Of a stretch of 64,000 nt of DNA, positions 16,759 through 62,860 are shown in pieces (within the stretch, counting starts at the first letter, position 1; each line of letters starts with the position of its first letter). The DNA is from Paracoccaceae bacterium. GTDB taxonomy: Bacteria; Pseudomonadota; Alphaproteobacteria; Rhodobacterales; Rhodobacteraceae. Under the pieces are notes generated by a model. It was given only the letters and a program-made list of their open reading frames with translations, did no database searches and was not told where the DNA came from. Both the position numbers and the translations under genes were made by a program. The DNA lies in the NCBI GenBank assembly GCA_902543185.1, contig CACBXB010000010.1:1-64000 (forward strand). Reading direction: 5' to 3'.

Positions 16759-16921
16759 AGCTGTTCCCTGTTTTAAAGTTATCTGACACCTTAATTATGA
16801 AAACCATTCTGTATTACATAAACGATGCAAAAGTTTATCCAATATGGCTTTTCTAAAAACGGCAGTAATTCTTTAAATTCATAAAAACGTTACAAATCTA
16901 TTTTAAAAGCACTGCGCGTAA

Positions 16922-16975
16922 GGAAAAGCCTCAATCCATTACTATCGATTCTCAAGTGCCGTGCGGGGCTTTTCC
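16922..16975 (+). promoter_or_regulatory. Possible structured leader upstream of MFS gene
   Basis: Within the 282-bp gap between the HD gene and the MFS gene, GGAAAAGCC (16922-16930) pairs perfectly with GGCTTTTCC (16967-16975). GCAC at 16909 could pair with either GTGC in the loop (16956 or 16961), which would give a pseudoknot-like fold. It lies 65 bp before the MFS start. It has no T-run, so it is not a simple terminator. It does not match any riboswitch consensus that I can recall. Confidence 0.4.
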
Positions 16976-17040
16976 ACCTGCAATTTATCTATTAAGAAAT
17001 TTTATGTCACTTTGATGGCTAGATTTCTTGGTAGGATTTT

Positions 17041-47397: not shown

Positions 47398-47670
47398 ATG
47401 GGCATTACTTCTGCGTTAGTTCTTTTTTTTGTTATCTGGTTTTTGGTTTTCTTGGTTGTCATTCCCATCAGACTTGAAACGCAAGGTGATGTTGGAGAAG
47501 TTGAACCAGGAACTCACGCTGGAGCACCTGCGAACCACAACTTAAAAAAGAAAGCTTGGATAACAACTGGTATATCTGCAGTTATTTGGGTAATTATTGC
47601 TTCCGTTATTTTATCAGGAAATCTTACAATTCACGATATAGATATTTTTAATAGGATGAGCGTGCACTGA
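47398..47670 (+). CDS. DUF1467 family membrane protein
   Basis: A 90-residue protein with two transmembrane helices (about 5-25 and 57-77) around the conserved loop IRLETQGDVGEVEPGTHAGAP. The family is common behind methylmalonyl-CoA epimerase in alphaproteobacteria; function unknown. Its TGA stop overlaps the first two bases of a tRNA-like sequence, an unusual contact. Length is complete for the family. Confidence 0.85.
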   Translation: MGITSALVLFFVIWFLVFLVVIPIRLETQGDVGEVEPGTHAGAPANHNLKKKAWITTGISAVIWVIIASVILSGNLTIHDIDIFNRMSVH

Positions 47671-47743
47671 TTTATTGCTCAGTTGGTAGAGTAACTGACT
47701 TTTAATCAGTGGGTCACAGGTTCAAATCCTGTACGGCTCACCA
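47669..47743 (+). tRNA. tRNA-Lys(UUU)-like gene with degenerate acceptor stem
   Basis: From base 10 onward this is a good tRNA: D-stem GCTC/GAGT, anticodon stem ACTGA/TCAGT around CTTTTAA (anticodon TTT), T-arm ACAGG-TTCAAAT-CCTGT, discriminator A and encoded CCA. The 3' acceptor strand ACGGCTC expects GAGCCGT at the 5' end, but the sequence is GATTTAT: two mismatches, two G-U pairs and only three Watson-Crick pairs. Base 9 also appears to be missing. It may be a 3' remnant from an integration event or a damaged gene. Confidence 0.5.
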
Positions 47744-47790
47744 CTAAAATCAATAACTTAGCGGAAATAATATATAAACCTCTCAAGCTG

Positions 47791-47812
47791 TGGGTTCCAA
47801 ATGGGTTCCAAA
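47791..47812 (+). repeat. Tandem duplication of an 11-mer
   Basis: TGGGTTCCAAA occurs twice with no gap (47791-47801 and 47802-47812), about 50 bp after the tRNA-like sequence. Similar tandem motifs can be integrase arm sites beside tRNA attachment sites, but no integrase is present. The duplication is seen; the role is a guess. Confidence 0.75.
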
Positions 47813-47967
47813 ATAGATGATCACATTTGCAATTCGCGCGCGCCCGTGCGCGACCTGTGTCTTTTTGTGTGGAAGGGGCTTATTTCTTTGAGTTACAGTT
47901 TCGTGAATAAACGCAATCCATACCAGTGCTCACTCATGCAATACTTTTCTCACACCAGCATGCCTCG

Positions 47968-48005
47968 ATGACAGAAATGACAAACTCCCCTTTATCAGGC
48001 GTAGG
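47968..48005 (-). repeat. Direct repeat, copy 1 (left border of the TRAP/PdxA2 cassette)
   Basis: A 38-bp sequence repeated at 55774-55811 in the same orientation with only two differences. On the minus strand both copies can be read as PTPDKG[E/D]FVISVI, and both differences fall in third codon positions of that frame. Copy 1 lies 85 bp beyond the LysR stop codon. Flanking sequence beyond the repeat is largely unrelated between the copies. Confidence 0.85.
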
Positions 48006-48089
48006 ATAGAGGTGGCGCATATATCGATAGGACGATGGATAAGGTGAGTTTTGTCCTAAGATTCTTCCCAGAACTTCTGGTGACTTTAC

Positions 48090-48947
48090 TTATGCCCTAG
48101 CTTCTAAAGCTTCAGCTATGATTGGCAGATCACGGCGGGACTTTAGACATACTGCGTGAATTTCACCATAAATTTGGAAATCAGCTGCACGAATTTTGGC
48201 AACTTGAAGGTTTTCTGGGATTTCATCAGTTGAGACTGGCGCAAGTCCTAATCCCTCTTGAGCTGCTTGCAAGGCACCTTCGCGACTGCCAAAAATAGCT
48301 ACTCTTCCAGGAATATATCCGTTTTGACCTAGTGCAGTATCCATCAAATTGCGTGTCTCTGACCCTATTTCACGTTGAATAAGCGTCTGTTCTTTAAATT
48401 CATCGCGAGAAACTGACCCTTTAGTGCAAAGAGGGTGTTTTTTGGAAACAGCAAATACAATTTCTGGTTCAGAAATAATTCGCATTTCACAATCTGTATT
48501 AGGTAAATGAGCTCCTACATATGCCAAGTCTATTTGATAGGATAATACCATGTCTAAAAGGGTTTTGGAGTTATCCAGTGTAAGATTTACTTCGAGACCT
48601 GGATACCGTTTCATCATTTGGGTCATAATTCCTGTTGCCCACCTTGGTGAAATTGCTCCCACACGCAAAGTCCCCCCTTTATTTTGTCCAGCACTTTGAA
48701 CTAGTGCTTCTGCATCCTTTTCCAGGCTAAACAGTTGTATTGTTGTTTCATATAGTTTTTCCCCCAATGGTGTTAAACGAGCTGTGCGTCCTCTGCCCCT
48801 AAAGAAAAGCTCAACTCCATATCGCTGCTCAAGACTCAGTACTTGAGCAGTTAACGTAGACTGTGAACGTGAAATAAGCTCGCTAGCGCGTACAAACCCA
48901 CCACTTTGAGCAACTGCATGAAAGGCACGTAATTCTGTAAAAAACAT
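48090..48947 (-). CDS. LysR-family transcriptional regulator
   Basis: A 285-residue regulator with an N-terminal winged helix (FHAVAQSGGFVRASELISRSQSTLTAQVLSLE) and a type 2 periplasmic-like effector domain. It is divergent from the FAD-oxidase/TRAP/kinase operon and so probably controls that operon in response to its substrate. The length is slightly short but normal. After the TAA stop the same frame remains open for 51 codons through the direct repeat, so the present end could be a shortened one. Confidence 0.9.
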   Translation of the reverse strand: MFFTELRAFHAVAQSGGFVRASELISRSQSTLTAQVLSLEQRYGVELFFRGRGRTARLTPLGEKLYETTIQLFSLEKDAEALVQSAGQNKGGTLRVGAISPRWATGIMTQMMKRYPGLEVNLTLDNSKTLLDMVLSYQIDLAYVGAHLPNTDCEMRIISEPEIVFAVSKKHPLCTKGSVSRDEFKEQTLIQREIGSETRNLMDTALGQNGYIPGRVAIFGSREGALQAAQEGLGLAPVSTDEIPENLQVAKIRAADFQIYGEIHAVCLKSRRDLPIIAEALEARA

Positions 48948-48973
48948 AATAAAAATAGATAAAAACGATTTAC

Positions 48974-48991
48974 TATTAGTATATAAACTAT
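48974..48991. promoter_or_regulatory. Possible LysR-type operator region
   Basis: In the 96-bp divergent gap, CTATTAGTATATAAACTA contains a short dyad, TAGT-N6-ACTA, in an AT-rich context. It lies about 50 bp before the FAD-oxidase start, where LysR-type regulators bind. Arms are only 4 bp, so this is weak evidence. Confidence 0.25.
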
Positions 48992-49043
48992 TTTACCAAT
49001 GTAATTGCAACCTTCTAGTTTGGAAGAAACTAGGAGACTTTAC

Positions 49044-50459
49044 ATGAATACTGTTGGATTTAGACAAGCCAATATTAATTTCGATGACTTGCGTGAGGCG
49101 GTGGGCCGGTCTGATTGTATCAGTGAGAGTACTAAAGTTATCAAAGATCATAGCCATGATTGGTGGCCAATCAATTCTGCCTGGCGTCATCAGGAAAAGT
49201 CTCCATTTGAACCCAACGCGGTGGCAACTCCCAAAAACTCTGAAGAAGTTGCGAAGATTCTTTCATGGGCACAAAAGGCAAAAGTTCCTGTAACACCATG
49301 GGGTCTTGGATCTTCTGTGGTTGGTGGCCCGTTGACGGTGCATGGAGGTATTTCTCTGGATACGACCAAGCTGGATCGTATAATCGACATTGATACTGAA
49401 AATATGCATGTAACAGTGGAAGCCGGAAAAAATGGTGGCATTCTAGAGGATCAACTTCAATCTCTTGGCTTGACACTAAACCACTCTCCACAATCACTTT
49501 ATCGATCAACTGTCGGGGGATGGCTTGCAACCCGAGCAACAGGACAATTTTCTTCACGCTATGGTGGAATTGAAGATCTTTGTGTCGGTTTCAAAGCAGT
49601 GCTTGCAGATGGTACAAAAGTTACGGTCGGAGGCTCTCCAAGGATGGCAGTTGGGCCAGATTTGCGGCACATTTTAATTGGATCTGAGGGTTGCTTGGGT
49701 GTGATAACGGAGGTCACACTACGGCTCTTCCCACTAGCTGAATTTCGTAAATTGCAGACGGTAACTTTTCCTGACGTTACTTCTGGAGTAACAGCTATGC
49801 GGCAAATAATGGTATCTGGTCTTAGTCCGTTCTTATTGCGCTTTTACGATTTAGCCGAGGCACGTCACGCTATGAAAGATGCCTCATTTTCTTCTCCTGT
49901 AATGTTTGTTGGCTCAGAAGGCGCAAAGAATTTTGCTGATAGCGAGATGTCTGAACTTCTAAAAATCTGTAACGAAAATAGTGGTGTGGATGTAGGATCA
50001 GATGGTGCAGAAGCCTGGATGAAAAGGCGCTTTGATTTTTCTACCATAGAGAATGTTTTAAAGACCCATGGAGGTGTAGCAGAAACGATAGAAGTAGCAA
50101 ATAATTGGTCAGGAATTAGTGGCACTTATGATGCTTTAACAAAAGCACTGAGACCATTTGCGGATGAAGTCCTGGGCCACTTTTCTCACGCTTATACCGA
50201 CGGTGTCTCGCTCTATGTCATATTGCTTGGTCAAGCAGAGTCCCCAAAAGACGCTGAATTACAATTTGAGCAAATCTGGAAGGTTGCGAACAGAGCAGTA
50301 TTAGACTCTGGGGCAGTTCTTTCACACCACCACGGTACTGGACTTGCTCGCAACGAACATGTGCATGAAGCCCTGGGATCTTCCTGGGAGCTTTATAGCC
50401 GGCTAAAAAAGGCGATTGATCCATCTGGCATCTTGAACCCTGGAAAGCTCGGCTTATGA
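49044..50459 (+). CDS. FAD-binding oxidase/dehydrogenase (AGPS/GlcD-like)
   Basis: A 471-residue flavoprotein of the PCMH/VAO type. The FAD domain runs from ATPKNSEEVAKIL through PVTPWGLGSSVVGG and YRSTVGGWLATRATGQFSSRYG, the latter characteristic of alkyldihydroxyacetonephosphate synthase relatives; the C-terminal VLSHHHGTGLARN and GILNPGKLGL complete the fold. Bacterial members mostly oxidise 2-hydroxy acids. AGGAG seven bases before ATG 49044 sets the start. It leads an operon with TRAP, kinase and PdxA-like genes and may feed hydroxy acids into that pathway. Confidence 0.85.
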   Translation: MNTVGFRQANINFDDLREAVGRSDCISESTKVIKDHSHDWWPINSAWRHQEKSPFEPNAVATPKNSEEVAKILSWAQKAKVPVTPWGLGSSVVGGPLTVHGGISLDTTKLDRIIDIDTENMHVTVEAGKNGGILEDQLQSLGLTLNHSPQSLYRSTVGGWLATRATGQFSSRYGGIEDLCVGFKAVLADGTKVTVGGSPRMAVGPDLRHILIGSEGCLGVITEVTLRLFPLAEFRKLQTVTFPDVTSGVTAMRQIMVSGLSPFLLRFYDLAEARHAMKDASFSSPVMFVGSEGAKNFADSEMSELLKICNENSGVDVGSDGAEAWMKRRFDFSTIENVLKTHGGVAETIEVANNWSGISGTYDALTKALRPFADEVLGHFSHAYTDGVSLYVILLGQAESPKDAELQFEQIWKVANRAVLDSGAVLSHHHGTGLARNEHVHEALGSSWELYSRLKKAIDPSGILNPGKLGL

Positions 50460-50505
50460 ACCGCGCTCGAGGAGGAGCGCTATTAATCTCATAGGGAGGA
50501 TTATT

Positions 50506-51513
50506 ATGATTAAGACAACTCGTAGAAATATGTTTAAGGCGGCGGCGCTATTAGGCGCGATCGCTTTAGCGGCCGGACCAGCTGTAGCACAAAAAAAGCT
50601 TGTTCTCGGAACGATTCAGGGTCCAACGGCACCCTTGACGCTTGCAGCTGAACATTTTGGTTCTGAACTGGAGCGATTGACTGATGGGCGCTTCAAAGTC
50701 AATGTCGTAAGCGCTGCGCAGCTTGGTCCGGCACTTGAGCAGTATCAAAATATACAGAGTGGAGCACAGGATCTGTTCGTAGATGATATTGGATGGAACG
50801 CCCAGTTTGTGAGGGACTACGGTGTTCTAGCAGTCCCCTTTGCAATCAACGGTCCAGAGGGTTTTCGAAAAGTTTTGGGAAGTGATTTCGCAGAAAGTTG
50901 GCGAGCAGAATTAAAGAGCCAGCATGGAATTGCAACTCTCTCTGATACATTCATTCGTTCACCGCGAGTAGTTTTTACTACATCAGCTGTTTATAGTCCG
51001 GACGATCTATCAGATGTAAAGTTTCGTGTTCCTGAGATAGATGTTTACTTTAATTCCTGGAAAGCCATCGGAGTGAATCCTACACCAGTGCCATGGGGTG
51101 AGCTCTATCTTGCACTTCGCCAGGGAGTCGTTGACGGTGGAGAAGGGCCTTTCACGACGTTAATTCCTACTAAATTTCCAGAAGTTGCAAAAAATGTATT
51201 ACTTACCAATCACCTATATTCGTCTAATACGATGATTATGAATGGTGCGAGTTACGATGCGCTAAGCGATGCTGATAAAGCGCTTTTTGCTGAAGCAACT
51301 GAGTCCGCTGAAAAGTTCTTTTTGAAGGAAATCGCCAAAATGGAAGCTGAACATCAAGGTACAATGGAAACTGAATATGGCGTCACATTCGCTACACCTT
51401 CAGACACACAACGTGCGGCTTTTGCAGCAAAGGTTTCTGAAGCTGTGCCAGGTTTTGTTGAAAGTGGTTTATTCAGTGAAGGCATCTACGAAAAGGTTAT
51501 TGCTGCGCAATAA
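50506..51513 (+). CDS. dctP: TRAP transporter substrate-binding protein
   Basis: A 335-residue periplasmic DctP-family protein. The N-terminus TTRRNMFKAAALLGAIALAAG looks like a twin-arginine-type signal with cleavage after AVA. The core has RVPEIDVYFNSWKAIGVNPTPVPW with the carboxylate-binding region and the ELYLALRQGVVDGGEGP segment. It binds an organic acid for the DctQM permease encoded 2.3 kb downstream. GGGAGG is nine bases before the ATG. A hairpin follows the gene. Confidence 0.9.
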   Translation: MIKTTRRNMFKAAALLGAIALAAGPAVAQKKLVLGTIQGPTAPLTLAAEHFGSELERLTDGRFKVNVVSAAQLGPALEQYQNIQSGAQDLFVDDIGWNAQFVRDYGVLAVPFAINGPEGFRKVLGSDFAESWRAELKSQHGIATLSDTFIRSPRVVFTTSAVYSPDDLSDVKFRVPEIDVYFNSWKAIGVNPTPVPWGELYLALRQGVVDGGEGPFTTLIPTKFPEVAKNVLLTNHLYSSNTMIMNGASYDALSDADKALFAEATESAEKFFLKEIAKMEAEHQGTMETEYGVTFATPSDTQRAAFAAKVSEAVPGFVESGLFSEGIYEKVIAAQ

Positions 51514-51530
51514 ACTGTTAACTATCTTCC

Positions 51531-51556
51531 CCGGCGTATGCTGTAGTGTACGCCGG
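51531..51556 (+). terminator. Intercistronic hairpin after the TRAP binding-protein gene
   Basis: CCGGCGTA (51531-51538) pairs perfectly with TACGCCGG (51549-51556) over a 10-base loop, 17 bp after the stop codon. A short TCTT run follows. It probably causes partial termination or protects the binding-protein mRNA, as in the other two importer operons of this window. Confidence 0.75.
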
Positions 51557-51584
51557 AGTGCTCTTCTGATTTGGAAAAGTTTAA

Positions 51585-52790
51585 ATGTTAGTTGGAATAA
51601 TAGCTGATGATTTGACCGGGTTGACCGCCGTAGCCAGTGAATTTGAGCGCTTCGGATTTTCGGTTGGGATCGCTTTTAGTTCTGACCAGGTAGATTCAAT
51701 TTCTGATCGTTACGATATTATTGGGGTGGATACTAATTCCCGAGAAAAAAACTCGCAAAAGGCAGCTAAAGCAGCCGAGGAGGCTGCAGAGGTTCTTTCA
51801 AAATTTAACCCTGTCTGGTTATTCAAACAAGGTGACTCTGCACTTCATGGTAATATAGCCTCTGAGCTTTCGGCAGTTTCCATAAAATTAAAAGCAAAAA
51901 ATGTCCTAATGGCTCCTGCTTGCCCCTCTCTAAATAGGATTACCATAGATGGAGTTCATCGTATAATTGCAGATGACCCTCATACCCATTTAAGCGTAGT
52001 GGACCTTTGGTCTGACGATCAAAAAGTGGCTGTAGTTGACTCCACCAAGCCTGCACCTGATGCGCTAAACTGCCCACTGATAACAGTTGTTGATGCGGAC
52101 AGCGACGCATCGCTTGATGCTGCAGTTAGACGTGCTGACGCATTTGATGAAAGACTTATCGCAGGGTCAGTGGGCCTTGCGAAAGCGCTGGCCAGGCATT
52201 TGTGGGTAAAAACTACAGGTGATTTTGCCCCAGCCCTAATTATTCTCGGCAGTTTTCAGTCGAAATCAAGAAATCAAGCTGAAACACTTCTGGCAACTAA
52301 AACTGCTAAACAGATCAATTTGCCTATCAGTATTAACGGGGCACCTGATTTGCTTTTAACTGTAGAGAAAGTAAAGGAGGCTCTTTCTGAGGGGCTTCAC
52401 GTTATTCTTGCTGCTGACACCAGTTTGTCTGAAGCCTCCGACTCTATACGCTATCCTTTTCTAGATGGCGCAGTACAAGAAAAAATAGAAAATGCATTAC
52501 GCCATACCACTCGAGCAGTCTTTGATCAGGTACGAAACAATATATGTGGTTTAATTGTTGTTGGAGGTGCAACTGCTGGGATAGTTTCTCGCGAAATTTT
52601 AAACATTAATCTCATACATGACATAATTCACTTAAGTGATGGTGTTGCGGCAGGGCTAGCTGAAGACTCCCAAGGTCAGCTTCTGCCAATAGTAACCAAG
52701 GCAGGTAACTGGGGAGAGAAAGAGATTTTTTTCCTAGCAGTTCGGTGGTTGCAGAAATCAAAAATTATTCAACAATTTAAAAAGGAGTGA
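51585..52790 (+). CDS. dtnK: Four-carbon acid sugar kinase family protein (DUF1537, DtnK-like)
   Basis: A 401-residue kinase of the DUF1537 family. The N-terminal IIADDLTGLTA and the C-terminal IVVGGATAGIVSREIL are the family substrate and nucleotide regions. Known members phosphorylate D-threonate, L-threonate, D-erythronate or related acids at O4. The adjacent PdxA-like gene points to D-threonate kinase (DtnK), whose product is oxidised by PdxA2. The substrate is inferred from that pairing. Close relatives such as OtnK pair instead with other enzymes absent here. Confidence 0.83.
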   Translation: MLVGIIADDLTGLTAVASEFERFGFSVGIAFSSDQVDSISDRYDIIGVDTNSREKNSQKAAKAAEEAAEVLSKFNPVWLFKQGDSALHGNIASELSAVSIKLKAKNVLMAPACPSLNRITIDGVHRIIADDPHTHLSVVDLWSDDQKVAVVDSTKPAPDALNCPLITVVDADSDASLDAAVRRADAFDERLIAGSVGLAKALARHLWVKTTGDFAPALIILGSFQSKSRNQAETLLATKTAKQINLPISINGAPDLLLTVEKVKEALSEGLHVILAADTSLSEASDSIRYPFLDGAVQEKIENALRHTTRAVFDQVRNNICGLIVVGGATAGIVSREILNINLIHDIIHLSDGVAAGLAEDSQGQLLPIVTKAGNWGEKEIFFLAVRWLQKSKIIQQFKKE

Positions 52791-52795
52791 TTTTA

Positions 52796-53812
52796 ATGTC
52801 TATTAAACCATTAGTAATAGGTGTCACAATGGGTGATCCAGCTGGGATTGGTCCTGAAATCACTACAGCGCTTCTAGCTGAACGGGTTTATGAAAAAGAA
52901 GTTCGGGCGGTCCTAATTGGATGCGCAAAGATGGTTGAAGAAGCTGCAAGGCGAAAAGGTCTCGATGTTTCAGTCCGGCGTCATGAAGTCCTTAAACGTA
53001 ATGAACTTAGATCAGGGGTCATTGATGTTTATGATCCTGAGGTCTTTGATGCTGCCTTGGTTCAGCCTGGTGGTATCAGTAAGGAGGCTGGAGAGGCATC
53101 AATGCTTTACAATCGGCAAGGTGCTGAATTAGCTATGGCTGAAGAAATAGATGGTCTTGTAACTTCGCCAGTGACAAAAGCTAGTGCCAAGATGGCAGGC
53201 TACGATTATCCCGGACAAGCTGAGTATTTTGCTGAGCTGGCTGGCGGAGTACCATTTTCTACCATTTTGATCTGGCAAAACTTCAAGGCGGCACTTTTTA
53301 CTACTCACACTCCATTAATCGATGCTTGCAGAGCGGTAACAAAAGATAATCTCTTGAAAAAAATTCGTTATCTGCACCAAAACCGTTTTGCGCTTGGTCT
53401 TCCCAATCTTCGTTTAGCTGTCGCTGCACTTAATCCCCACGCTGGAGAGTTTGGGACTATGGGTCGGGAGGAAAAAGATGAAATAGAGCCAGCTATTTCA
53501 ATAGCGCAAAGTGAAGGTATTTCTGTCGATGGACCTTTCCCAGTTAATGCACTGATTTCTCCACCTTACAACGGTAGAGATTATGATTTAACTTTGGCGC
53601 TTTATCATGATCAGGTGGTTTCGCGCATGAATATGAATGAGACGACAACACTTACTTTTGGTCTTCCATTTATCCGAACATCAGTAGGGCATGGTTCAGC
53701 ATTAGATATTGCTGGAAATGATGTTGCTGATCATGGTGCGCTGGCCACGACTTATGATCACACTGTTGATCTTGCTCTATCACGCCAAAATTCGAAGATT
53801 TTCTCTCAATGA
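52796..53812 (+). CDS. pdxA2: PdxA-family 4-phosphohydroxythreonate dehydrogenase (PdxA2-like)
   Basis: A 338-residue metal- and NAD-dependent oxidative decarboxylase. VIGVTMGDPAGIGPEI opens the protein; metal-ligand histidines are seen in FTTHTPL, LNPHAGEFG and LALYHDQV. PdxA itself serves vitamin B6 synthesis, while PdxA2 oxidises D-threonate 4-phosphate to dihydroxyacetone phosphate and CO2. The kinase partner and TRAP importer favour the catabolic role. AGGAG eight bases before ATG 52796 sets the start. The stop overlaps dctQ by 4 bp. Confidence 0.86.
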   Translation: MSIKPLVIGVTMGDPAGIGPEITTALLAERVYEKEVRAVLIGCAKMVEEAARRKGLDVSVRRHEVLKRNELRSGVIDVYDPEVFDAALVQPGGISKEAGEASMLYNRQGAELAMAEEIDGLVTSPVTKASAKMAGYDYPGQAEYFAELAGGVPFSTILIWQNFKAALFTTHTPLIDACRAVTKDNLLKKIRYLHQNRFALGLPNLRLAVAALNPHAGEFGTMGREEKDEIEPAISIAQSEGISVDGPFPVNALISPPYNGRDYDLTLALYHDQVVSRMNMNETTTLTFGLPFIRTSVGHGSALDIAGNDVADHGALATTYDHTVDLALSRQNSKIFSQ

Positions 53813-54321
53813 CTGATCAAAAAAATAGTCCAATTGCGAGAGCGCGTTTTAAAATGATTAAATTGCAACAGCATATTCTTATTCTGATAGCAATTTCCAT
53901 GACTATTGTCGTGGTTTATCAAATTGTCGCCCGTATTGGTGGTTTCTCGGTAAGGTGGACCGAAGAATTAGCCAGGTTCCTCAGTATATGGGCAACTTTT
54001 CTAGCAGTACCAATTCTCATAGCGTCTGGAAGACTGATAAATATAGATTTTTTCTATATGGCAATGCCTGCTTGGCTTCGGCGTTTGATTTCCTATCTCC
54101 AAATTTTGATCTCTATAGCTGCATTTCTAACCCTTATTTGGATAGGTTTTGCACAAGTACAGGCAACTTGGCATCAGACCAGCCCAGGTCTGCTTTGGCC
54201 TATGGGTCTTTTTACACTGCCTGTAGTGGTTTGTTCAATTCTTAGCATTTTTGTTACTCCTGACTGGTTAACTTTCAATCAACGCTTTGGAGAAGATGCC
54301 GATATGGAGAAATACCTATGA
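53809..54321 (+). CDS. dctQ: TRAP transporter small permease
   Basis: A 170-residue membrane protein with four predicted helices. The segment VRWTEELARFLSIWATFLAVPI is the DctQ family hallmark (WTEELARYLL in others). It starts within the PdxA2 stop (ATGA) and its own stop overlaps dctM in the same way, so translation is coupled. It supports the large permease in organic acid uptake. Confidence 0.9.
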   Translation: MTDQKNSPIARARFKMIKLQQHILILIAISMTIVVVYQIVARIGGFSVRWTEELARFLSIWATFLAVPILIASGRLINIDFFYMAMPAWLRRLISYLQILISIAAFLTLIWIGFAQVQATWHQTSPGLLWPMGLFTLPVVVCSILSIFVTPDWLTFNQRFGEDADMEKYL

Positions 54322-55595
54322 CTGTTGGTATGATTCTTATAGTTTTGGCGGTACTAGCGGCAATAGGTCTACCCGTTTCTATTGCAATTCTTGTCCCATC
54401 ACTACTTTATCTCTTCGTAAATGAAATCCCACTTTCTTCAGCAATCGCTAGAATGTCTGGTTCAGTAAATTCGTTTACCGTGATGGCTGTTCCATTTTTC
54501 ATTATGGCTGGTCAGGTCATGAACCATAGTGGGTTGACCGAAAAATTAGTGGCCTTCACTCGATGTCTTGTGGGGCATTTACGTGGAGGGTTAGCGCAGG
54601 TTAATGTTGCTGCAAGTATAATCTTTGCAGGTATGTCAGGGTCTGCTGTTGCTGATGCAGGTGGGCTTGGATCGGTCTTAATTGGACCTATGAAAAAGGA
54701 TGGATATACCGCATCTTTCTCAGCTGCCGTTACAGCAGCATCTTCTACAATAGGTCCCATTATACCTCCTTCAATTCCAATGGTAATTTTTGCCGTTATT
54801 GCTGAAGAGTCTGTTGGCCGACTTTTTATTGCTGGTGCAGTACCCGGTTTTCTATTGGGCTTATTAATGATGGTTATGCTGCGTTTTTTACCGCAAACTC
54901 GTGATATAAAAGTTTATCCTCGTGCTTCTCTAAATGAGTTTCGTGCTCATTTACCTGCTGGGATTTTGGCAATACTTATGCCAGCAATAATTCTAATTGG
55001 GATTACCATGGGAGTTTTCACTCCAACCGAGGCGGCAGCAGTGGCAGCAGTCTATGCAACAATTGTGGGTGCATTTATTCTTCGTGGTCTTACATTTCAG
55101 CGTTTTCGTGAGGCGCTTTTGCAAAGTATGCTCCTATCAGGAAATGTTTTGTTCGTTGTTGCCGTAGCAGGTGTATTTGGATGGATTTTGGCACGTGAAG
55201 GTGTTTCTGGCCAACTGGCAGATTGGTTGGTTACAATGGATTTGTCACCGCTGATGCTGCTTATTGTGCTAAACATTTTGCTTTTGCTTATTGGTTGTGT
55301 CCTTGAGCCGATTTCTGTTTTGATAGTTCTTACCCCAGTTTTAGTACCAGTAATCGGATATGCAGGGATCGATACAGTTCATTTTGGAGTAATAATGGTT
55401 TTCAATTTAATGATAGGTCTTGTAACTCCGCCTATGGGATTAGTTTTATACGTCGTTAGTGATGTGTCTGGCGAAAGGTTTGAAAAGGTTGTTAAGGATA
55501 TTTTGCCTTTTTATCTACCTATGTTATTTGTCTTGTTGTTAATTACAATTTTTCCCAACCTAGTGCTCTGGCTGCCAAATCTGATGTTCAATTGA
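54318..55595 (+). CDS. dctM: TRAP transporter large permease
   Basis: A 425-residue membrane protein with about twelve helices. Conserved TRAP motifs include AVPFFIMAGQVMN, GMSGSAVADAGGLGSVLI, TAASSTIGPIIPPSIPMV and the NLMIGLVTPPMG segment. It is the Na+-coupled channel half of the importer. It is the last gene of the LysR-controlled operon; the right direct repeat follows 178 bp later. Confidence 0.92.
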   Translation: MTVGMILIVLAVLAAIGLPVSIAILVPSLLYLFVNEIPLSSAIARMSGSVNSFTVMAVPFFIMAGQVMNHSGLTEKLVAFTRCLVGHLRGGLAQVNVAASIIFAGMSGSAVADAGGLGSVLIGPMKKDGYTASFSAAVTAASSTIGPIIPPSIPMVIFAVIAEESVGRLFIAGAVPGFLLGLLMMVMLRFLPQTRDIKVYPRASLNEFRAHLPAGILAILMPAIILIGITMGVFTPTEAAAVAAVYATIVGAFILRGLTFQRFREALLQSMLLSGNVLFVVAVAGVFGWILAREGVSGQLADWLVTMDLSPLMLLIVLNILLLLIGCVLEPISVLIVLTPVLVPVIGYAGIDTVHFGVIMVFNLMIGLVTPPMGLVLYVVSDVSGERFEKVVKDILPFYLPMLFVLLLITIFPNLVLWLPNLMFN

Positions 55596-55773
55596 AGCAT
55601 CTGCAAAAATGTTGTCAAGTAAGGCAATGCTTGATAGTGGCTTAGCAGTTAGCGAACAAACGGATAAAGTTCGATGACGACTTTCTTTGAGCGTCGATGT
55701 TTGAAATACTATCGTCATTTAGAGATGCTTTTCTAATGGGAACTGCGGTTTATAACGATCGCTCGCACCCCCT

Positions 55774-55811
55774 ATGACAGAAATGACAAAGTCTCCTTTA
55801 TCAGGCGTAGG
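55774..55811 (-). repeat. Direct repeat, copy 2 (right border of the TRAP/PdxA2 cassette)
   Basis: It matches copy 1 (47968-48005) at 36 of 38 positions. On the minus strand the frame PTPDKGDFVISVI is open here too but then continues with a different C-terminus (GGASDRYKPQFPLEKHL). It is not in frame with the cyclase gene upstream. It lies in the 287-bp gap between dctM and the cyclase. Confidence 0.85.
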
Positions 55812-55846
55812 GGGGAGGTCGTTAAAAAACTAGAAGGACAGAGTGG

Positions 55847-55871
55847 TAAGATACTGCTCTCATAATTTTCT
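55847..55871 (-). repeat. Dispersed repeat, copy A
   Basis: A 25-bp element 12 bp downstream of the cyclase gene (minus strand). It matches copy C (59494-59518) at 23 of 25 positions and copy B (58443-58467) less well. All three copies lie shortly beyond the 3' end of a minus-strand gene or gene remnant, within 3.7 kb. Confidence 0.7.
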
Positions 55872-55882
55872 AAAAAATTAAA

Positions 55883-57361
55883 TTACACAAGTCGACTCAA
55901 AACATCTGAAATTAATTTCATTGCTCTGTCGTTGTCTTCTATTTCATTTGGATCGAACGTTAGTGATAAACCTGGAATCGATTTAACCAATTTTGACGAG
56001 TATGAACTGCTGCTGGAAGTAAATCCTGATACCTCGTAAGTTTGAATTGGATAAGAAACCCCCTTAACCGAGATTTCTTGCTTTTTGATGCATTTTATTT
56101 CTTCTTTTACCAAGAGATAGGTATCTTCCGAAATTAGAATTTTATTTGACTCCGAATTAGTTTCCAGCCTTGCTGCCAAGTTCACTCCATTACCAATGAC
56201 CGTGTAGTCTAATCTGTCCTCAGATCCAAAATTTCCAACTGTACAAACACCTGAGTGAATACCCATTCTAGCATTAAGTGATCTGGCTAATCCTCTTTCA
56301 CGCCATGCTTCACGAAGTAGTTCTAGTTTCTCCAACATCTCAAGAGCCATTGAAACACATGCCATTGCATCTTCTTTATTTCCTCTGCTTTCGGGATCGC
56401 CAAAAAATACGAGAATTGCATCGCCAATAAATTTGTCGATAGTACCTCCCCAACGAATTGCAATCTTTGACATTTCTGTAAGATACTGGGTCAAAAGTTC
56501 AGTTAATATTTCAGGTTCAAGTCGTTCAGTTAGTTCTGTGAAACCCTGCAAGTCAGAGAAGAAAACAGTCAGTGGCTTACGCTGTGTCTGAATCTTAACA
56601 TCAAGTTCTCCTGAAAAAATGGATTCGTAAACTTGTGGAGAAAAATACTTTGCTAACTTTTCCGAAAGGTCTACCAACTCCTTGGTTCGGTCAGCAACTT
56701 TGCTCTCTAAATTTGTATTTAAATCAGCAAGCTCCGCATGTGCTTTATCCAAGTCTTGTAACCGTTGCTGCTCTAGCTGATACAGTTTAGCATTTTGCAA
56801 AGCGTTAGCCGTTTGGTTTGCAAGAATTTTTATTATTAATTCATCAGATTTATCAAAAATATTAACTTGATCACTCTCTACCGAAAATACCCCAATCAAT
56901 TCGTCTTCCATCAACATTGGTATCGCAACCTGACTCTCGGCGTTTTTCAGACCAGGAAGACTTATTTCATCTGCAACTACTGTATCTTCTGACGGTTGGA
57001 TTTGCTGTTTAATAGCCTGCATATACTGCTTTTGTGCGCCAAGATTTGCCATGCGCATTAGCTTCTTTTTTTTGGCGACCATCCCTATTACACCAACGCC
57101 AATCTTTACCTCGGCCCCTATACCCTCTTCTTTATAGCCATGCGTTGATATAACTTTTAGAGCATTTTCAGAACTATCAAGCAAAAGTATCATTGAGTGT
57201 TTGAAATCGAAGTATTCTTCCATGCTCTTGAGCATAGTTTTAGCAATATCATCTAAGTTTAAAGTTTTACTAATCTGCGACGCTACCCTCTCGATGATCT
57301 CAATTTCTTTATTGCGGCGTTCTAGCTGTTCAGCTAGCGTTTTGGCATCACTATCAGTCAT
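55883..57361 (-). CDS. GAF domain-containing adenylate/guanylate cyclase
   Basis: A 492-residue class III cyclase. A GAF sensor spans about 25-190, a coiled coil with a CHASE-like link about 193-240, and the cyclase domain about 260-455. Metal aspartates are D270 in FFSDLQGFTE and D314 in GDAILVFFG; K310 and the DYTVIG segment suggest ATP rather than GTP as substrate. No membrane segment, so the sensor is cytoplasmic. It is the last gene of an operon with two FMN-binding split-barrel proteins; a redox, flavin or small-molecule signal for the GAF domain is plausible inference. Confidence 0.88.
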   Translation of the reverse strand: MTDSDAKTLAEQLERRNKEIEIIERVASQISKTLNLDDIAKTMLKSMEEYFDFKHSMILLLDSSENALKVISTHGYKEEGIGAEVKIGVGVIGMVAKKKKLMRMANLGAQKQYMQAIKQQIQPSEDTVVADEISLPGLKNAESQVAIPMLMEDELIGVFSVESDQVNIFDKSDELIIKILANQTANALQNAKLYQLEQQRLQDLDKAHAELADLNTNLESKVADRTKELVDLSEKLAKYFSPQVYESIFSGELDVKIQTQRKPLTVFFSDLQGFTELTERLEPEILTELLTQYLTEMSKIAIRWGGTIDKFIGDAILVFFGDPESRGNKEDAMACVSMALEMLEKLELLREAWRERGLARSLNARMGIHSGVCTVGNFGSEDRLDYTVIGNGVNLAARLETNSESNKILISEDTYLLVKEEIKCIKKQEISVKGVSYPIQTYEVSGFTSSSSSYSSKLVKSIPGLSLTFDPNEIEDNDRAMKLISDVLSRLV

Positions 57362-57421
57362 TTGATTTCACCTAAAAGTTTTGCTTGTGATTGCTTTGCC
57401 ACGCAAAAAATTTTTCTTAAC

Positions 57422-57814
57422 CTATAAATTATTTTTTGAAATTGATAGAACGGTATAAATGTCTGCTCCCTTAAGTTCAAAGACACCTGACATTCCACTC
57501 ATTGAGGCAATTGCCTCTAGTTTCATATCCATTTCGTCAAACAGGTCGCCCTCACTTTCAGTTCTGTTATATTTCAATTCTAGCGTATAGGTATCGAAAG
57601 AAGCAGGGTTAGTTATCGTTGCAAAAGCAAACGGATTCTGGCTTATGTTTTTTCTAGTTTTATTGAAAAACTGAAAAGATAGAGCGACCTCTGTTTCGTT
57701 AACATGCCAGATTTGAGATATAACTGTCGTGTTAGGCTCTCCATCATTTGACACAGTCGTAATCCAACTCGGAAACATTCCTTGTAATGCAGGGAGGTGA
57801 TCATCATTAATCAT
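57422..57814 (-). CDS. Pyridoxamine 5'-phosphate oxidase-like FMN-binding protein
   Basis: A 130-residue split-barrel flavin-binding protein. The N-terminus has LPALQGMFPSWITTVSNDGEPNTTVISQ, typical of the small PNPOx-like group, and NKTRKNISQNPFAFATITNP covers the phosphate region. It lacks the residues of true pyridoxamine oxidase, so it may be a flavin reductase, F420- or heme-related enzyme, or a redox sensor. It sits 17 bp after a similar protein gene and 60 bp before the cyclase. Confidence 0.8.
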   Translation of the reverse strand: MINDDHLPALQGMFPSWITTVSNDGEPNTTVISQIWHVNETEVALSFQFFNKTRKNISQNPFAFATITNPASFDTYTLELKYNRTESEGDLFDEMDMKLEAIASMSGMSGVFELKGADIYTVLSISKNNL

Positions 57815-57831
57815 GAAATTTCTCCAACATA

Positions 57832-58284
57832 TTAAATCTCTTTTCCTGCATCAGGACCGGGGGTCTGAACAAAAACTTTGTCGACTGAAAAGACCACTGC
57901 AATGTCTATTGGCTTTAACCAATATCTATCTGCTAAATTTTTGGGAATTCCCAGTTCATCATAAAAACCATACATTTTTTTTCTTAGGTCATCGCAGACT
58001 TGAATTTCATCATCATTAACATTACGGAGTTCTATTACTGCGCCCTTTAAATTGTAAGCTTCATGGCTGATAACAGTTGCGAAAAGACTGACACGTGAAC
58101 CTATCTCTAAGTGTTCTAGAAATAGCTTGTTCGTCTTTTTGTTTAGACAACAAACAATAGTGTTCGTAGCTTGATCGCAGCAAATGCCCAGTGGATCGGC
58201 ATGAAATGGCCGCAACGAAGAAGAGGCACATCCAATATGGCCTATACCATTCGTTAACACATTATAAACTTGATCTGAGATCAT
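57832..58284 (-). CDS. Second PNPOx-like/FMN-binding split-barrel protein
   Basis: A 150-residue split-barrel protein, diverged from its neighbour. LEIGSRVSLFATVISHEAYNLKGAVIEL is the recognisable strand pair. Three cysteines cluster near NTIVCCLNKKTNK and GICCDQ. It is probably the first gene of the operon leading to the GAF cyclase. A pair of flavin proteins encoded with a cyclase suggests a sensing module; that is inference. Family assignment is by pattern only. Confidence 0.7.
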   Translation of the reverse strand: MISDQVYNVLTNGIGHIGCASSSLRPFHADPLGICCDQATNTIVCCLNKKTNKLFLEHLEIGSRVSLFATVISHEAYNLKGAVIELRNVNDDEIQVCDDLRKKMYGFYDELGIPKNLADRYWLKPIDIAVVFSVDKVFVQTPGPDAGKEI

Positions 58285-58442
58285 CTATTCTACCTAAAAT
58301 ACTATGTTAATAAAGTCATACTCTTCAGAATACTAAATTGCTATTAGATAATTTTCTGGTGCGACAAAATATTTATTAAGGCTTAATTACGTACTACTAG
58401 ATTAAAAGGGAAGGGGCAAACAACTACCAGCGTTTAGGTTGC

Positions 58443-58467
58443 TAAGATACCGCTGTCACATTTTTTT
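58443..58467 (-). repeat. Dispersed repeat, copy B
   Basis: Lies 22 bp beyond the stop codon of the patatin gene. It matches copy C at 20 of 25 core positions, and the similarity to C continues on the left (TAGGTT) and on the right (GGTATTCA) and into the patatin 3' coding end. So B and C share about 100 bp of diverged homology. Confidence 0.65.
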
Positions 58468-58488
58468 TGAAAAAGGTATTCATCTTTT

Positions 58489-59340
58489 TTAATCAAAGTC
58501 CTCTAAACAATTTAAAAATTCTCCAGCAACTCGTTTTCCTAATTTATAGTCTGCTTTTAAAAACTCTATATTTTTTGTATCTCTTTTTGATTTCAGTTTT
58601 TTTGGAGGACATAGTTGTATGATTTCACAATCGTGTGGAGGATTGTTTATAAAATCCAGTGCGCGATTGTAAGTTTTGTCGTGCTCTAATAATGCTTTTC
58701 TCAATCGAGGATATTGTGACGATAGGAAAGCGCCAATGTAATTTTCGAGCTTCAGTCTCCTTCTAAATTTTTTCTCATATGTTCTAATTACAGTTATTTT
58801 CTTAGCCCCCATTTTATATGCTTTTTCCACAGGTAAGGGGTCCGCAATGCCTCCATCAAATTTCCTGCGTCCGTCGATTAAACTTGGTGTTTTTACCAAT
58901 ATAGGCAGGGTTCCAGACGCGATCATTTTTGGCATCCACTCACCATCCCCAAATGAATAATATTCAGCATTCGCTTCGATCGCATCGGTTACAACCGCAA
59001 TGTAGTTTTTGCCCTCTAAGTTATTTTTAATTTTTTCCATGCTCGGGTTAAACATTTTCTCACCATCTTCGTACATTTGATGAAATTTTAATATGTCTTT
59101 ACCAGTAAAGATATTTTTATAACTCAGGTAATTACCTTGTGCGGCATAGAGCATTTTATCCAAATTATTGTCTGTTTCTTTAATTAGATACCAGCATAGG
59201 ACAGCCACACCATTTGATACACCAATATAAATATCAAATGGATCATAATTTTGGTTTATAAAAGTGTCAGTTATTCCAAAAGAAAATACACCTCTTTGGC
59301 CGCCACCTTCTATGATAAGAGCTGTTTTTTTATTTTCCAT
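58489..59340 (-). CDS. Patatin-like phospholipase
   Basis: A 283-residue lipid acyl hydrolase. The oxyanion loop is GGGQRG (12-17), the nucleophile is S42 in GVSNG and the catalytic Asp is D162 in DGG. No signal peptide, so it acts in the cytoplasm or membrane surface on phospholipids or acyl chains. The C-terminus is basic. It is monocistronic. A related 3' end appears as a remnant at about 59.5 kb, which suggests a former tandem copy. Confidence 0.87.
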   Translation of the reverse strand: MENKKTALIIEGGGQRGVFSFGITDTFINQNYDPFDIYIGVSNGVAVLCWYLIKETDNNLDKMLYAAQGNYLSYKNIFTGKDILKFHQMYEDGEKMFNPSMEKIKNNLEGKNYIAVVTDAIEANAEYYSFGDGEWMPKMIASGTLPILVKTPSLIDGRRKFDGGIADPLPVEKAYKMGAKKITVIRTYEKKFRRRLKLENYIGAFLSSQYPRLRKALLEHDKTYNRALDFINNPPHDCEIIQLCPPKKLKSKRDTKNIEFLKADYKLGKRVAGEFLNCLEDFD

Positions 59341-59493
59341 GACAACAAATAATTAGAAAAGTTAAGTAAAAAATCAAATCTGTTTGATAGAAATTTCAAA
59401 ACAAACTGACCCAGCATGGAAATTAATAATTGGTGCAAATCGAGATGAAATAAAGGATAGGAAGCCGCTTAGACCTAGCAGCTGTTAGGTTAC

Positions 59494-59518
59494 TAAGATA
59501 CTGGTCTCACAATTTTCT
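59494..59518 (-). repeat. Dispersed repeat, copy C, with patatin-like remnant
   Basis: Matches copy A at 23 of 25 positions. Immediately right (minus-strand upstream), the sequence aligns with the last codons of the patatin gene: 23 of 29 positions match from GAGGA onwards. Here it reads EDYDQKR then stop, where the patatin ends EDFD. No full-length gene remains, so it looks like a decayed second copy. Confidence 0.6.
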
Positions 59519-59633
59519 GTAAACGGTATTCAACGTTTCTGATCATAATCCTCGTTTATAAATTTTTCACCAAAATCCAGAATTTGGTATACAAAAGATA
59601 CTGATTGAATAAAAGAACATGGGTTTGTGACAG

Positions 59634-59786
59634 ATGTCTCAACTGTTAATTTTTATGGCACTAACAGTCTTTGTTGCTGTTCTGATGCGAAAGAAAAAGC
59701 ATAGACCGAATAGAAAGTTTACACCAAAGCCTGTCAGTAAATCTTTTAGTAGAAATCCTGAAAACAGAAGAAAAAAGTATAGATAA
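59634..59786 (+). CDS. Small membrane protein, 50 residues
   Basis: The sequence begins MSQLLIFMALTVFVAVL, one transmembrane helix, then a very basic tail with many Lys/Arg (RKKKHRPNR and NRRKKYR). Its TAA stop overlaps the ATG of the YceI-like gene by one base (TAATG), a strong sign that it is translated. The ribosome site is weak. Function unknown; the basic tail could contact membrane lipids or RNA. It is too short for many gene finders. Confidence 0.65.
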   Translation: MSQLLIFMALTVFVAVLMRKKKHRPNRKFTPKPVSKSFSRNPENRRKKYR

Positions 59787-60337
59787 TGGCCCGATCTGCT
59801 CTTTATTTACTCATTTTTCTATGTGCTTTTTGCGGTCCCTCAATATCTGAAGAATACCAACTTCCCCAAAACACAGATGTGACTTTCAAATATTCTGTTG
59901 CGGGCCTACCATTTGAGGGGGAATTTAAAGTCACTGAAAGTAAGTTCGATATTAATTTTAGGAATCCCGTTCAATCTGTTTTTTCTGTAAAATTTGATTT
60001 GATGAAAAGCAATGCAGGTTTTCCACTTGCTACAACGGCGATGAAACAAGTATTAGATGCTTATAGATTTCCTGAAGTAACCTTTGAAAGCAAATCTGTA
60101 GAATTTGGTGATGAAAAATTTAACGTACTAGGGTTTCTAAAAATCAGAAACGTAGTAAAGCCAGTTAATTTAATAGTGATTGTTTTGGAAGATTATAACT
60201 CAGAAAGCGAAAAAATTTATTTTTCTATTCGAGCAAGATTCAAAAGGCGTCAATTTGGTGCAGATGGCTATTATCCACTAGTGCGTGACGCAATCATAAT
60301 TCAGGATGTTTTAACACTAAATAAATCGCGGGAATAA
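59786..60337 (+). CDS. YceI-like periplasmic protein
   Basis: A 183-residue exported beta-barrel lipid-binding protein. A signal peptide of about 21 residues is followed by YQLPQNTDVTFKYSVAGLPFEGEFKV, then AMKQVLDAYRFPEVTFESKSV and FGADGYYPLVRDAIIIQ, in YceI order. Members bind isoprenoid-like lipids in the periplasm. It is coupled to the small membrane protein before it. Substrate and trigger unknown. Confidence 0.85.
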   Translation: MARSALYLLIFLCAFCGPSISEEYQLPQNTDVTFKYSVAGLPFEGEFKVTESKFDINFRNPVQSVFSVKFDLMKSNAGFPLATTAMKQVLDAYRFPEVTFESKSVEFGDEKFNVLGFLKIRNVVKPVNLIVIVLEDYNSESEKIYFSIRARFKRRQFGADGYYPLVRDAIIIQDVLTLNKSRE

Positions 60338-60382
60338 AATAAACCCGTACAAAAATATGCAATGGTAGAGACCCTATGCGAA

Positions 60383-60856
60383 CTAGAGTGAATTCATAGG
60401 TTTGTTAATATCATCAAAGCACATTTTTATTATCTCTGCGTGAAGACGGAAATCAGATGCTAGCTTGTCTCTTAATAATCGAGCATCTTTTTCAATTTCA
60501 AATAGGCTACTCCATATTACAGAATGATCCTCAGCGGGTAACTTTTTTAACCGCGCTGTAATATCAGAGGTTTTTTCATAGAAATCACTTGTCAAAGCAA
60601 CAAATAGCTTTTCTAAATTAGCCTCTGTATAAAACCTCTTGTCAATTTCAGACTGCATCTTTGAGCGATTTAATTTTGCCTGTAAAACGTATGGTTGTTC
60701 CACTTCATCTGGTTGCCAACCTTTACCACCCCAAGGCATCAATGCATTGCCACAAGTTGAGAAATCCGCCACGGCCTTGATGTACAACGCCCTTACGTCA
60801 ATGCTCGCAAAGCAAAGATTTGGCAAGACAATGCAAATCAAAAATAGTCGTTTCAT
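60383..60856 (-). CDS. Secreted hypothetical protein
   Basis: A 157-residue protein with a signal peptide of about 17 residues (MKRLFLICIVLPNLCFA). The mature part is helical and charged, with two cysteines at about 35 and 148 that could form a disulfide. I do not recognise a family; a loose resemblance to lysozyme-inhibitor-like secreted proteins is not convincing. It is monocistronic and convergent with the YceI gene. Confidence 0.7.
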   Translation of the reverse strand: MKRLFLICIVLPNLCFASIDVRALYIKAVADFSTCGNALMPWGGKGWQPDEVEQPYVLQAKLNRSKMQSEIDKRFYTEANLEKLFVALTSDFYEKTSDITARLKKLPAEDHSVIWSSLFEIEKDARLLRDKLASDFRLHAEIIKMCFDDINKPMNSL

Positions 60857-61102
60857 CTGACTTTCCTCAATTTATTTACAGCCTGTAAGACCAAGTTTTC
60901 AAATCTAGTTGATATACGCTTGCGCACTGAATTTGGATTTAAAAGCTGCGTTGACTTAATTTTGCCAGAATTGGTTCATCTGATAATCTCCAATTTCTAG
61001 CCGGCGTAAGACCAGTAATAAGAGGCAGATAAAACAAGTAATTCAACAGTAGTGCGGGCTTTGAAGCTACGCATTCGCCAATTTACGTTTTAGTAGCAGA
61101 AG

Positions 61103-61139
61103 TAAAAAAAACCTGCTTCAAGAGAGCACTGAAGCAGGT
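61103..61139 (-). terminator. Rho-independent terminator on the minus strand
   Basis: AACCTGCTTCA (61109-61119) and TGAAGCAGGTT (61129-61139) pair perfectly over 11 bp with a 9-base loop. On the minus strand the stem is followed by eight T (plus-strand A run 61103-61110). No minus-strand gene is recognisable just to its right, so it may end an unannotated small RNA. Confidence 0.75.
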
Positions 61140-61179
61140 TCTGTAATTTGAACATCGACACGACAGGGAGGAAGTGTGT

Positions 61180-61224
61180 AATGAACACTTATGAGTTGCT
61201 GAAATGCTGCAAACATTACAAGTA
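61180..61224 (+). other. 14-codon reading frame with a strong ribosome site
   Basis: ATG preceded by GGGAGGAAG (nine bases), reading MNTYELLKCCKHYK then TAA. The Shine-Dalgarno is stronger than that of most genes here. It could be a real leader peptide, with two adjacent Cys codons, a decayed gene start, or chance. Confidence 0.3.
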
Positions 61225-61349
61225 AACTTTTCTTGAAATAATTAAGTATTAATCAACAATTGTAAGCTGCTGAATTATATGGCGAATTTGCCTAAATATT
61301 AACCATAAGAATAAATGAAAAATGTTTACTGAAATACGCAACGTCATTA

Positions 61350-61388
61350 GCTACAAAAATTGAGATTAGTGGGTGTAATTTTTGTAGC
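61350..61388. promoter_or_regulatory. 12-bp inverted repeat upstream of malonyl-CoA decarboxylase
   Basis: GCTACAAAAATT (61350-61361) and AATTTTTGTAGC (61377-61388) are perfect inverted arms around 15 bases. It ends 45 bp before the decarboxylase ATG. It could be an operator or 5' UTR hairpin controlling that gene. It has a partial T-run on the plus side, so attenuation is also possible. Confidence 0.6.
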
Positions 61389-61433
61389 AATCAGGGCAAG
61401 TTTATAGTTGGGAAATTTCAGGACTATGTAACT

Positions 61434-62708: not shown

Positions 62709-62860
62709 AAATCTAGGAGTGAAGAGGCGAAATTTGCTCTTGGTTCTTCTGAAGGTAATAAGAAAGTAAACTTTGGCTTGAGCATTATTTAGTCAGGCAA
62801 CGTGTTAAATGCTGCCTTCCCATCATGTCGTTTGTCCATGTTGGTTTAAAGATTAATCTG

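Follow-up and report, generated by a model that had tools for sequence, protein, structure and literature searches.

An operon-sized module between palindrome-derived repeats in a probable additive island behind a tRNA-Lys-like sequence of a Paracoccaceae bacterium

How does a complete operon come to lie between two nearly identical 38-bp direct repeats, and was it the repeats that brought it there? The question is raised by a 7.8-kb unit in a Paracoccaceae bacterium (GCA_902543185.1, contig CACBXB010000010.1), within the 64-kb stretch of DNA that was analysed as a whole and is called the window here. The source genome (G000) is a 2.02 Mb draft in 49 contigs, 75% complete, and the window is its contig C10. 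Comparisons within the genus used 16 incomplete drafts (G000 to G015; ~29.8 Mb, 336 tRNA matches), and a wider set of 101 genomes comprised G000 and 100 relatives, 85 of them outside the genus. Our reading, to which we give a probability of roughly three in four, is that the 7.8-kb unit forms a single cargo module in an additive island, which lies behind an ectopic, degenerate tRNA-Lys between a DUF1467 gene and a nitroreductase-like gene, and that the repeat is a palindrome associated with the joints between modules. The names DUF1467, nitroreductase, YceI, TctC, pyridoxamine oxidase, EF-hand and selA/selB are sequence-based and were given by inspection.

The two repeat cores, at 47968-48005 (repeat A) and 55774-55811 (repeat B), are both on the plus strand and agree at 36 of 38 positions, and the similarity between A and B reaches 51 nt at 86%. 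A 36-nt pattern allowing up to three mismatches was absent from all 100 dinucleotide-shuffled versions of the window, so the copies do not owe their likeness to chance. The pair is as the initial annotation had described it, and so is what it encloses: by Pfam, one LysR-type regulator (48090-48947, minus strand) and one six-gene operon (49005-55595, plus strand) for an FAD-linked oxidase, DctP, a DUF1537-type kinase (SBD_N/NBD_C), PdxA2, DctQ and DctM. Judging by earlier work on DUF1537 kinases and PdxA2, the operon probably serves the catabolism of a four-carbon sugar acid, for example threonate or erythronate.

A DUF1537 gene occurs in two of the 16 drafts, each time at a different place. 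The counterpart in G011 covers window positions 48064-55610, with gaps, is split over two contigs and adjoins a tRNA-Thr(CGT) and a class-1 arm. Its left homology edge falls 9 bp past the end of repeat A, and the repeat itself is absent from the left flank and from the ~104 bp of right flank that precede the contig end. A relative carrying the operon without flanking repeats, which the initial annotation had named as evidence against repeat-bounded cassettes, is thus found in part, and because the repeat is missing on the testable side there is no sign that the operon needs it. The G011 copy is perhaps broken or misassembled, since a portion of its DUF1537 gene is missing at the gap between the two contigs, the PdxA2 counterpart (locus L077, G011:C67, 1840-2692) is short by ~70 residues and DctM is short by ~20. 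Found at two different places, the operon looks like a mobile unit of cargo.

The locus that received it can be compared through the DUF1467 gene, which is present in 12 other genomes of the genus. In eight of these (G003, G005, G007, G008, G009, G011, G012 and G013) the nitroreductase-like gene lies only 17-44 nt away, as measured between matched stretches; in G004 it lies 0.9 kb away with a decayed tRNA-Lys in between, in G014 it was not found in the 17 kb covered, and the contigs of G015 and G006 end at the locus. The content of the site is thus variable among the relatives, being empty in eight of 12, a 0.9-kb insert in G004, and different again in G000 and G014. Compared with G014, the window holds 15.1 kb of extra sequence (47768-62870) behind the same tRNA. 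A single copy of the repeat left at an empty site, which was the expectation under the initial annotation, was looked for and not seen: the eight empty sites have none, nor do the loci of G004 and G014. In G000 itself C10 carries DUF1467, whereas C13 carries the nitroreductase-like gene (at 15297), beside more attachment remnants and an integrase, so that the island may span both contigs.

The tRNA-Lys(TTT)-like sequence (47669-47743, plus strand; ARAGORN; Rfam 51.8 bits) starts at the DUF1467 stop codon. Two of the seven pairs of its acceptor stem are mismatched and two are T-G, whereas the tRNA-Lys of G010 has all seven paired, one of them G-T. The ARAGORN call and this defective stem make "degenerate" a fair word for it, and the distance of 225 bp to the left repeat copy was also correctly given. 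It was not found at the locus in seven of the 12 relatives (G005, G007, G008, G009, G011, G012 and G013), and G003 retains a tRNA-Lys 3' scar of ~40 nt there. We infer that this sequence is the ectopic landing pad of the island and that it has lost its function as a tRNA. Behind it lie a 16-bp core, AAATCAATAACTTAGC (core16; 47747-47762, plus strand), which also follows a tRNA-Thr on C2 and, with mismatches, other tRNA-Lys pieces; an 11-bp tandem direct repeat, two copies of TGGGTTCCAAA (47791-47812, plus strand), a putative and probable arm-type integrase site; and an arm motif, GCGCGCGCCCGTGCGC (47836-47851, plus strand), which is present downstream of several tRNAs of the genus. The whole layout recurs downstream of several genus tRNAs, where a tandem direct repeat of 11-12 bp and the arm motif GCGCGCGYCCGYGCGC are in some cases preceded by core16. 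The corresponding region on C13 matches 107 plasmid and 305 phage records; in the 20 matches listed for each group the alignment is confined to roughly the first 90 bases out of 231, and the matches are therefore taken as tRNA similarity.

Attachment-arm scars of a second class also lie farther inside the island. A profile built from G000:C13, G014 and G008 finds one at 58388-58478 (plus strand; E 1.9e-11, iterated 1.9e-18), which heads a third module consisting of a patatin-like gene (58489-59340, minus strand; Pfam), and another at 59473-59528 (plus strand; E 6.1e-6, iterated 4e-10), before a fourth module with a YceI-like gene that starts at 59786. A weaker match to the arm tail, formed by the right half of repeat B (55808-55873, plus strand), heads the second module, a GAF-cyclase with two pyridoxamine-oxidase-like genes (55883-58284, minus strand; the cyclase by Pfam). 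All three matches fall inside the island, and the iterated profile finds nothing else in the 64-kb window at E 0.1 and nothing on the reversed sequence at E 1. Homology to the tRNA-Lys locus of G014 returns at 62870, and the last large open reading frame (ORF) ahead of that point is a malonyl-CoA decarboxylase gene (61434-62708, plus strand; Pfam). Like the operon, the cyclase module lies at different places in relatives: counterparts of 55875-58384 occur elsewhere in five of them. The G008 counterpart stands behind the remnant of a tRNA-Lys attachment site, which matches the C13 site at 81% over 172 bp, and the G005 counterpart behind a tRNA-Thr-like remnant (by eye), while in the window the module is preceded only by the arm-tail-like stretch fused to repeat B. 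The cyclase domain of the GAF-cyclase (55883-57361) is also matched by the Pycsar cyclase models of PADLOC (best E 3.4e-28); a role as a Pycsar defence gene was rejected, six neighbouring proteins matching nothing in the PADLOC library.

The machinery that could have placed these modules is seen elsewhere in the genus. At least 31 matches to PF00589 are listed there, and the four examined (G000:C13, G003:C25, G009:C16 and G001:C15) carry Arm-DNA-bind_3 and Phage_integrase domains; in each case an 11-bp tandem repeat coincides with the start of the gene or immediately precedes it, and a piece of tRNA 3' sequence lies close by. In the G001 integrase gene this tandem repeat agrees with the window's TGGGTTCCAAA pair at 21 of 22 bases (by eye); those of the G000:C13 and G003 integrases do not match the window arm. 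On G009:C16 an apparently complete element can be followed from a tRNA-Thr(CGT) through an arm, genes and an integrase to a near-copy of the arm repeat and a tRNA-Thr 3' half, and on G003:C25 (locus L019) a TctA module has a tRNA-Lys 3' piece on either side. Cassettes on G003:C25 and G009:C16 are thus flanked by direct repeats of tRNA 3' parts, single pieces occur on G000:C13, and none were found elsewhere in the window. The C13 integrase may or may not share the window's island. Between it and the nitroreductase-like gene (locus L149, 11407-14903) ARAGORN also places a tRNA-SeC beside selA/selB-like genes.

Taken together, the evidence on insertion points to tRNA attachment sites and to arm-binding tyrosine integrases encoded elsewhere, and not to the repeats on which the initial annotation had built; its broader suggestion of modular insertion without an integrase in the unit survives, in that the operon looks mobile and no integrase was found in the window, and fails in that the repeat is no general boundary. 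Modules would enter by site-specific recombination at tRNA 3' halves, catalysed by tyrosine integrases of the Arm-DNA-bind_3 type, and those of the window, having no integrase, would have been inserted in trans. Such trans-acting integrases, like any order of insertion, are what we infer from the arrangement. If insertions leave attachment-arm scars, the island would therefore be a tandem array of operon-sized modules. The palindromic element would sit at module ends, and in repeat B it would be fused to the apparent arm of the next module.

Several observations weigh against this account. No integrase was found in the window and no excision was seen; the full extent of the island is itself pieced together across C10 and C13; and for the tandem repeats where integrase genes start there was no control for chance. 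The number of arm-motif matches is no evidence, because with up to one mismatch the motif gives 13 matches across eight of the 16 genomes and its backwards control gives 9, so that only nearness to tRNAs counts: 12 of the 13 lie within ~250 bp of a tRNA (10, by ARAGORN) or a tRNA piece (two, one by pattern and one by eye), and the remaining one, at locus L140, is not near a tRNA. The match at 55808 (E 0.012, a value read in a duplicate locus; 1.6e-4 after iteration) is not independent, because the flank of the G008 cyclase module is part of the profile. An attachment remnant precedes the cyclase module in only two of five relatives, none being seen in G002, G012 and G011, and no tRNA fragment was found at the joints at 55808, 58388 and 59473 or near 62870. 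As to the repeat, no tRNA gene is near the copies on C35, C36, G014, G015 and G006:C39 in the loci viewed, and the C35 copy sits between divergent genes (by eye).

What, then, is the repeat? G000 holds five copies at up to three mismatches, not two. At that threshold the motif occurs in four of the 101 genomes, every one of them in the genus and none among the 85 relatives outside it. In a collection of 84,980 genomes the exact pattern is found on two contigs, one of which is the same record as G003 (100% over 3036 bases), the other being PBUZ01000094.1 (locus L018). Searches by BLAST with the complete element add further, more divergent copies in G005, G010 and G015, for a family of 14 (G000 five, G006 and G010 two each, G003, G005, G014 and G015 one each, and L018), not counting further matches of that search with E above 0.003, which were partial or chance-like. 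The count may be a lower bound: copies lie at or near contig ends on G000:C2 (end), G006:C82 (start) and G015:C32 (start), so assemblies may break there. Viral contigs had no match to the exact 32-nt pattern, and blastn with the repeat found none on plasmids and phages.

The L018 copy is complete: it measures 99 bp, its 17-bp inverted ends match perfectly, and, whether taken as DNA or as RNA, it folds much more strongly than shuffled versions (z about -5.9; 0 of 200). The right terminal inverted repeat is also perfect in G010:C102; in the other copies shown the ends are lost or truncated, and copies other than that of L018 retain mainly the left or mainly the right half, with insertions or deletions (indels) adjoining the core. 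The 38-bp repeat is the conserved half of a palindromic element of ~100 bp. The window copies fold unremarkably (A, z -2.1; B, z -0.5). Repeat A (47968-48055, plus strand) joins the core to a type-a right half and, with its left flank, resembles the C2 tRNA-Thr locus (79.6% over 235 bp), while the right half of B, which differs, resembles an arm tail, and its core forms the joint between the operon and cyclase modules. A composite transposon fails for want of a transposase, the copies being short intergenic stretches (88 and ~100 bp) with no ORF of at least 90 aa across them. The idea of a riboswitch was set aside, as copies adjoin both 3' and 5' gene ends (by eye). Rfam, run on 11 repeat-bearing loci, finds two tRNAs above the gathering score and no family at the repeat, its two other matches (the reverse of a tRNA, and an anti-hemB-like match in L019) being far below that score. 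The element seems to be undescribed in the literature searched, on tycheposons, Rhodobacteraceae miniature inverted-repeat transposable elements (MITEs), Roseobacter islands, additive islands and arm sites. The L018 contig is filed as a Euryarchaeota metagenome-assembled genome and is perhaps misbinned.

The surroundings of the copies tie them to tRNAs and to module borders. Four of the 13 genus copies lie 225-325 bp downstream of a tRNA on the same strand: repeat A 225 bp behind the tRNA-Lys-like sequence, and others 271 bp behind a tRNA-Thr(TGT) on C2, ~320 bp behind a tRNA-Ser on G010:C102 and ~245 bp behind a tRNA-Met on G005:C23 (P about 1e-8 to 3e-6, for a distance picked after looking and copies that are not independent). 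In G003 a distance of 41 bp separates the copy from the tRNA-Lys 3' half to its right, which is the right-hand one of the two pieces flanking the TctA module, the copy being on the inner side; on G010:C81 the repeat is followed by a core-like remnant (by eye). No tRNA gene is near window copy B or the G006:C82 copy within the loci viewed. That the repeat keeps company with other metabolic modules, as had been proposed, is supported in several cases, by phosphonate-type transport at C36, an ABC-transporter and racemase operon at G006:C39, the TctA module with ComA-like genes at G003 (with alike genes in G006:C82) and an IclR/BKACE operon at L018. Relatives of the gene that comes next to the repeat on its left on G006:C39 are present in five genomes, with different neighbours in each. 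Two genes that are only 47 bp apart in G003 are separated in G014 by 2.3 kb with some four ORFs; the repeat lies near the right end of this stretch, and no tRNA is nearby. The repeat marks joints, and most likely it once belonged, in a subterminal position, to the right end of certain modules; to have inserted the operon is probably not its role.

The strongest competing explanation is that the palindrome is an element of the MITE or repetitive extragenic palindromic (REP) kind, which inserted independently near module borders and brackets the operon by coincidence. We hold this possible, if on the doubtful side. Such elements would account well for a non-coding palindrome of ~100 bp with the inverted ends and strong fold of the L018 copy, and for a family of few copies that within the 101 genomes is confined to this genus. 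REP-like repeats sit between convergent genes, and window A and B, G006:C39, G014 and G010:C81 lie between convergent genes or between a tRNA and a gene (by eye). Against it stand the orientation shared with the tRNA in all four tRNA-proximal copies and the shared-sequence edges, which differ between copy pairs (235, 98 and 99 bp). Inspection by eye showed no target-site duplication, the BLAST hits in the 16 drafts include no autonomous parent that has such ends, and the comparable relatives, G014 and G006:C39, place the copy at a break of adjacency instead of in a conserved gap. In the sole direct comparison, G014 against G003, the difference is 2.3 kb and not the element alone.

A more active part can be imagined for the palindrome, as a cis-acting end that would let several arm-binding integrases mobilise integrase-less cassettes in trans, a tRNA-anchored counterpart of the integron in which the probably non-functional tRNA-Lys is kept only as a landing pad. 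This we put forward tentatively and think rather unlikely. Recombination between the two 38-bp repeats, by which the cassette would integrate or excise and leave one copy at the empty site, is very improbable: the shared orientation and near identity of A and B, and the homology edge 9 bp from repeat A, are set against empty sites without the repeat, a G011 operon without it where it could be seen, and right halves that differ between A and B, with B's like an arm tail. Least credible of all is the idea of a remnant coding sequence carried with cassettes, for although both A/B differences do fall on third codon positions when the minus strand is read in the frame PTPDKG[E/D]FVISV, as the initial annotation stated, and all 11 cores are free of stops over 12 codons of it, third positions account for only 8 of the 15 columns that vary across 11 copies (P = 0.09, which makes the codon-position clue weak), indels lie just beside the core, and the L018 palindrome accounts for the conservation without coding.

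Islands that grow by addition are known. As described in Alteromonas (PMC5217437), Actinomarinales (PMC7771536) and Methylophilaceae (PMC10872708), they consist of cassettes at tRNA genes with tRNA 3' direct repeats, carry metabolic and transport cargo and differ in content between strains at one locus. The island we propose shares the variable content, the tRNA at the insertion point and the recurrence of the same cassette elsewhere (the operon in G011, the cyclase module in five relatives). It differs in its landing pad, a tRNA-Lys-like sequence that is ectopic and was not seen at this position in seven of the 12 relatives, in that arm scars and not tRNA fragments head the window modules, and in the palindrome at joints. 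With elements of arm-binding tyrosine integrases, which we take to be those called P4-like, G009, G001, G003 and G000 share the Arm-DNA-bind_3 integrase, the tRNA 3' half beside it and the tandem repeat at its start, whereas the window modules are without an integrase. Integron cassette arrays likewise consist of tandem modules each with the scar of a recombination site; here the array would be anchored at a tRNA. MITE and REP-like repeats resemble the palindrome in the features already named and differ in its few copies, tRNA orientation and want of noticed duplications or a found parent. Tycheposons, as portrayed in PMC10872708, are also tRNA-linked elements of aquatic bacteria with a tyrosine recombinase and nutrient-use cargo; the modules here are small, stacked and without a recombinase of their own. 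Additive tRNA-anchored islands being already known, what seems to set this one apart is that its landing pad is ectopic and damaged, that modules are headed by arm scars and that a palindrome, which seems new, sits at junctions. The case, drawn from drafts of uncultured ocean bacteria, suggests how whole uptake-and-breakdown operons can be exchanged as units, and the marks it leaves in the sequence, namely arm scars, tandem sites of 11 bp and the palindrome at junctions, could serve to identify and count such modules. If the palindrome is a mobility signal, it would help to explain the spread of integrase-less cassettes among tRNA sites.

Two further stretches of the window have relatives on the opposite strand elsewhere. 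The first, 216 bp at 61099-61314, is 75.5% identical to L019 7268-7495, shows strong predicted hairpins (without a control) and is perhaps a further dispersed repeat; the L019 part carries the sub-threshold anti-hemB match of Rfam (26.4 of 49.5 bits). The second, 110 bp at 16879-16988, is 79% identical to C35 4687-4796, has a predicted hairpin and may belong to another repeat family.

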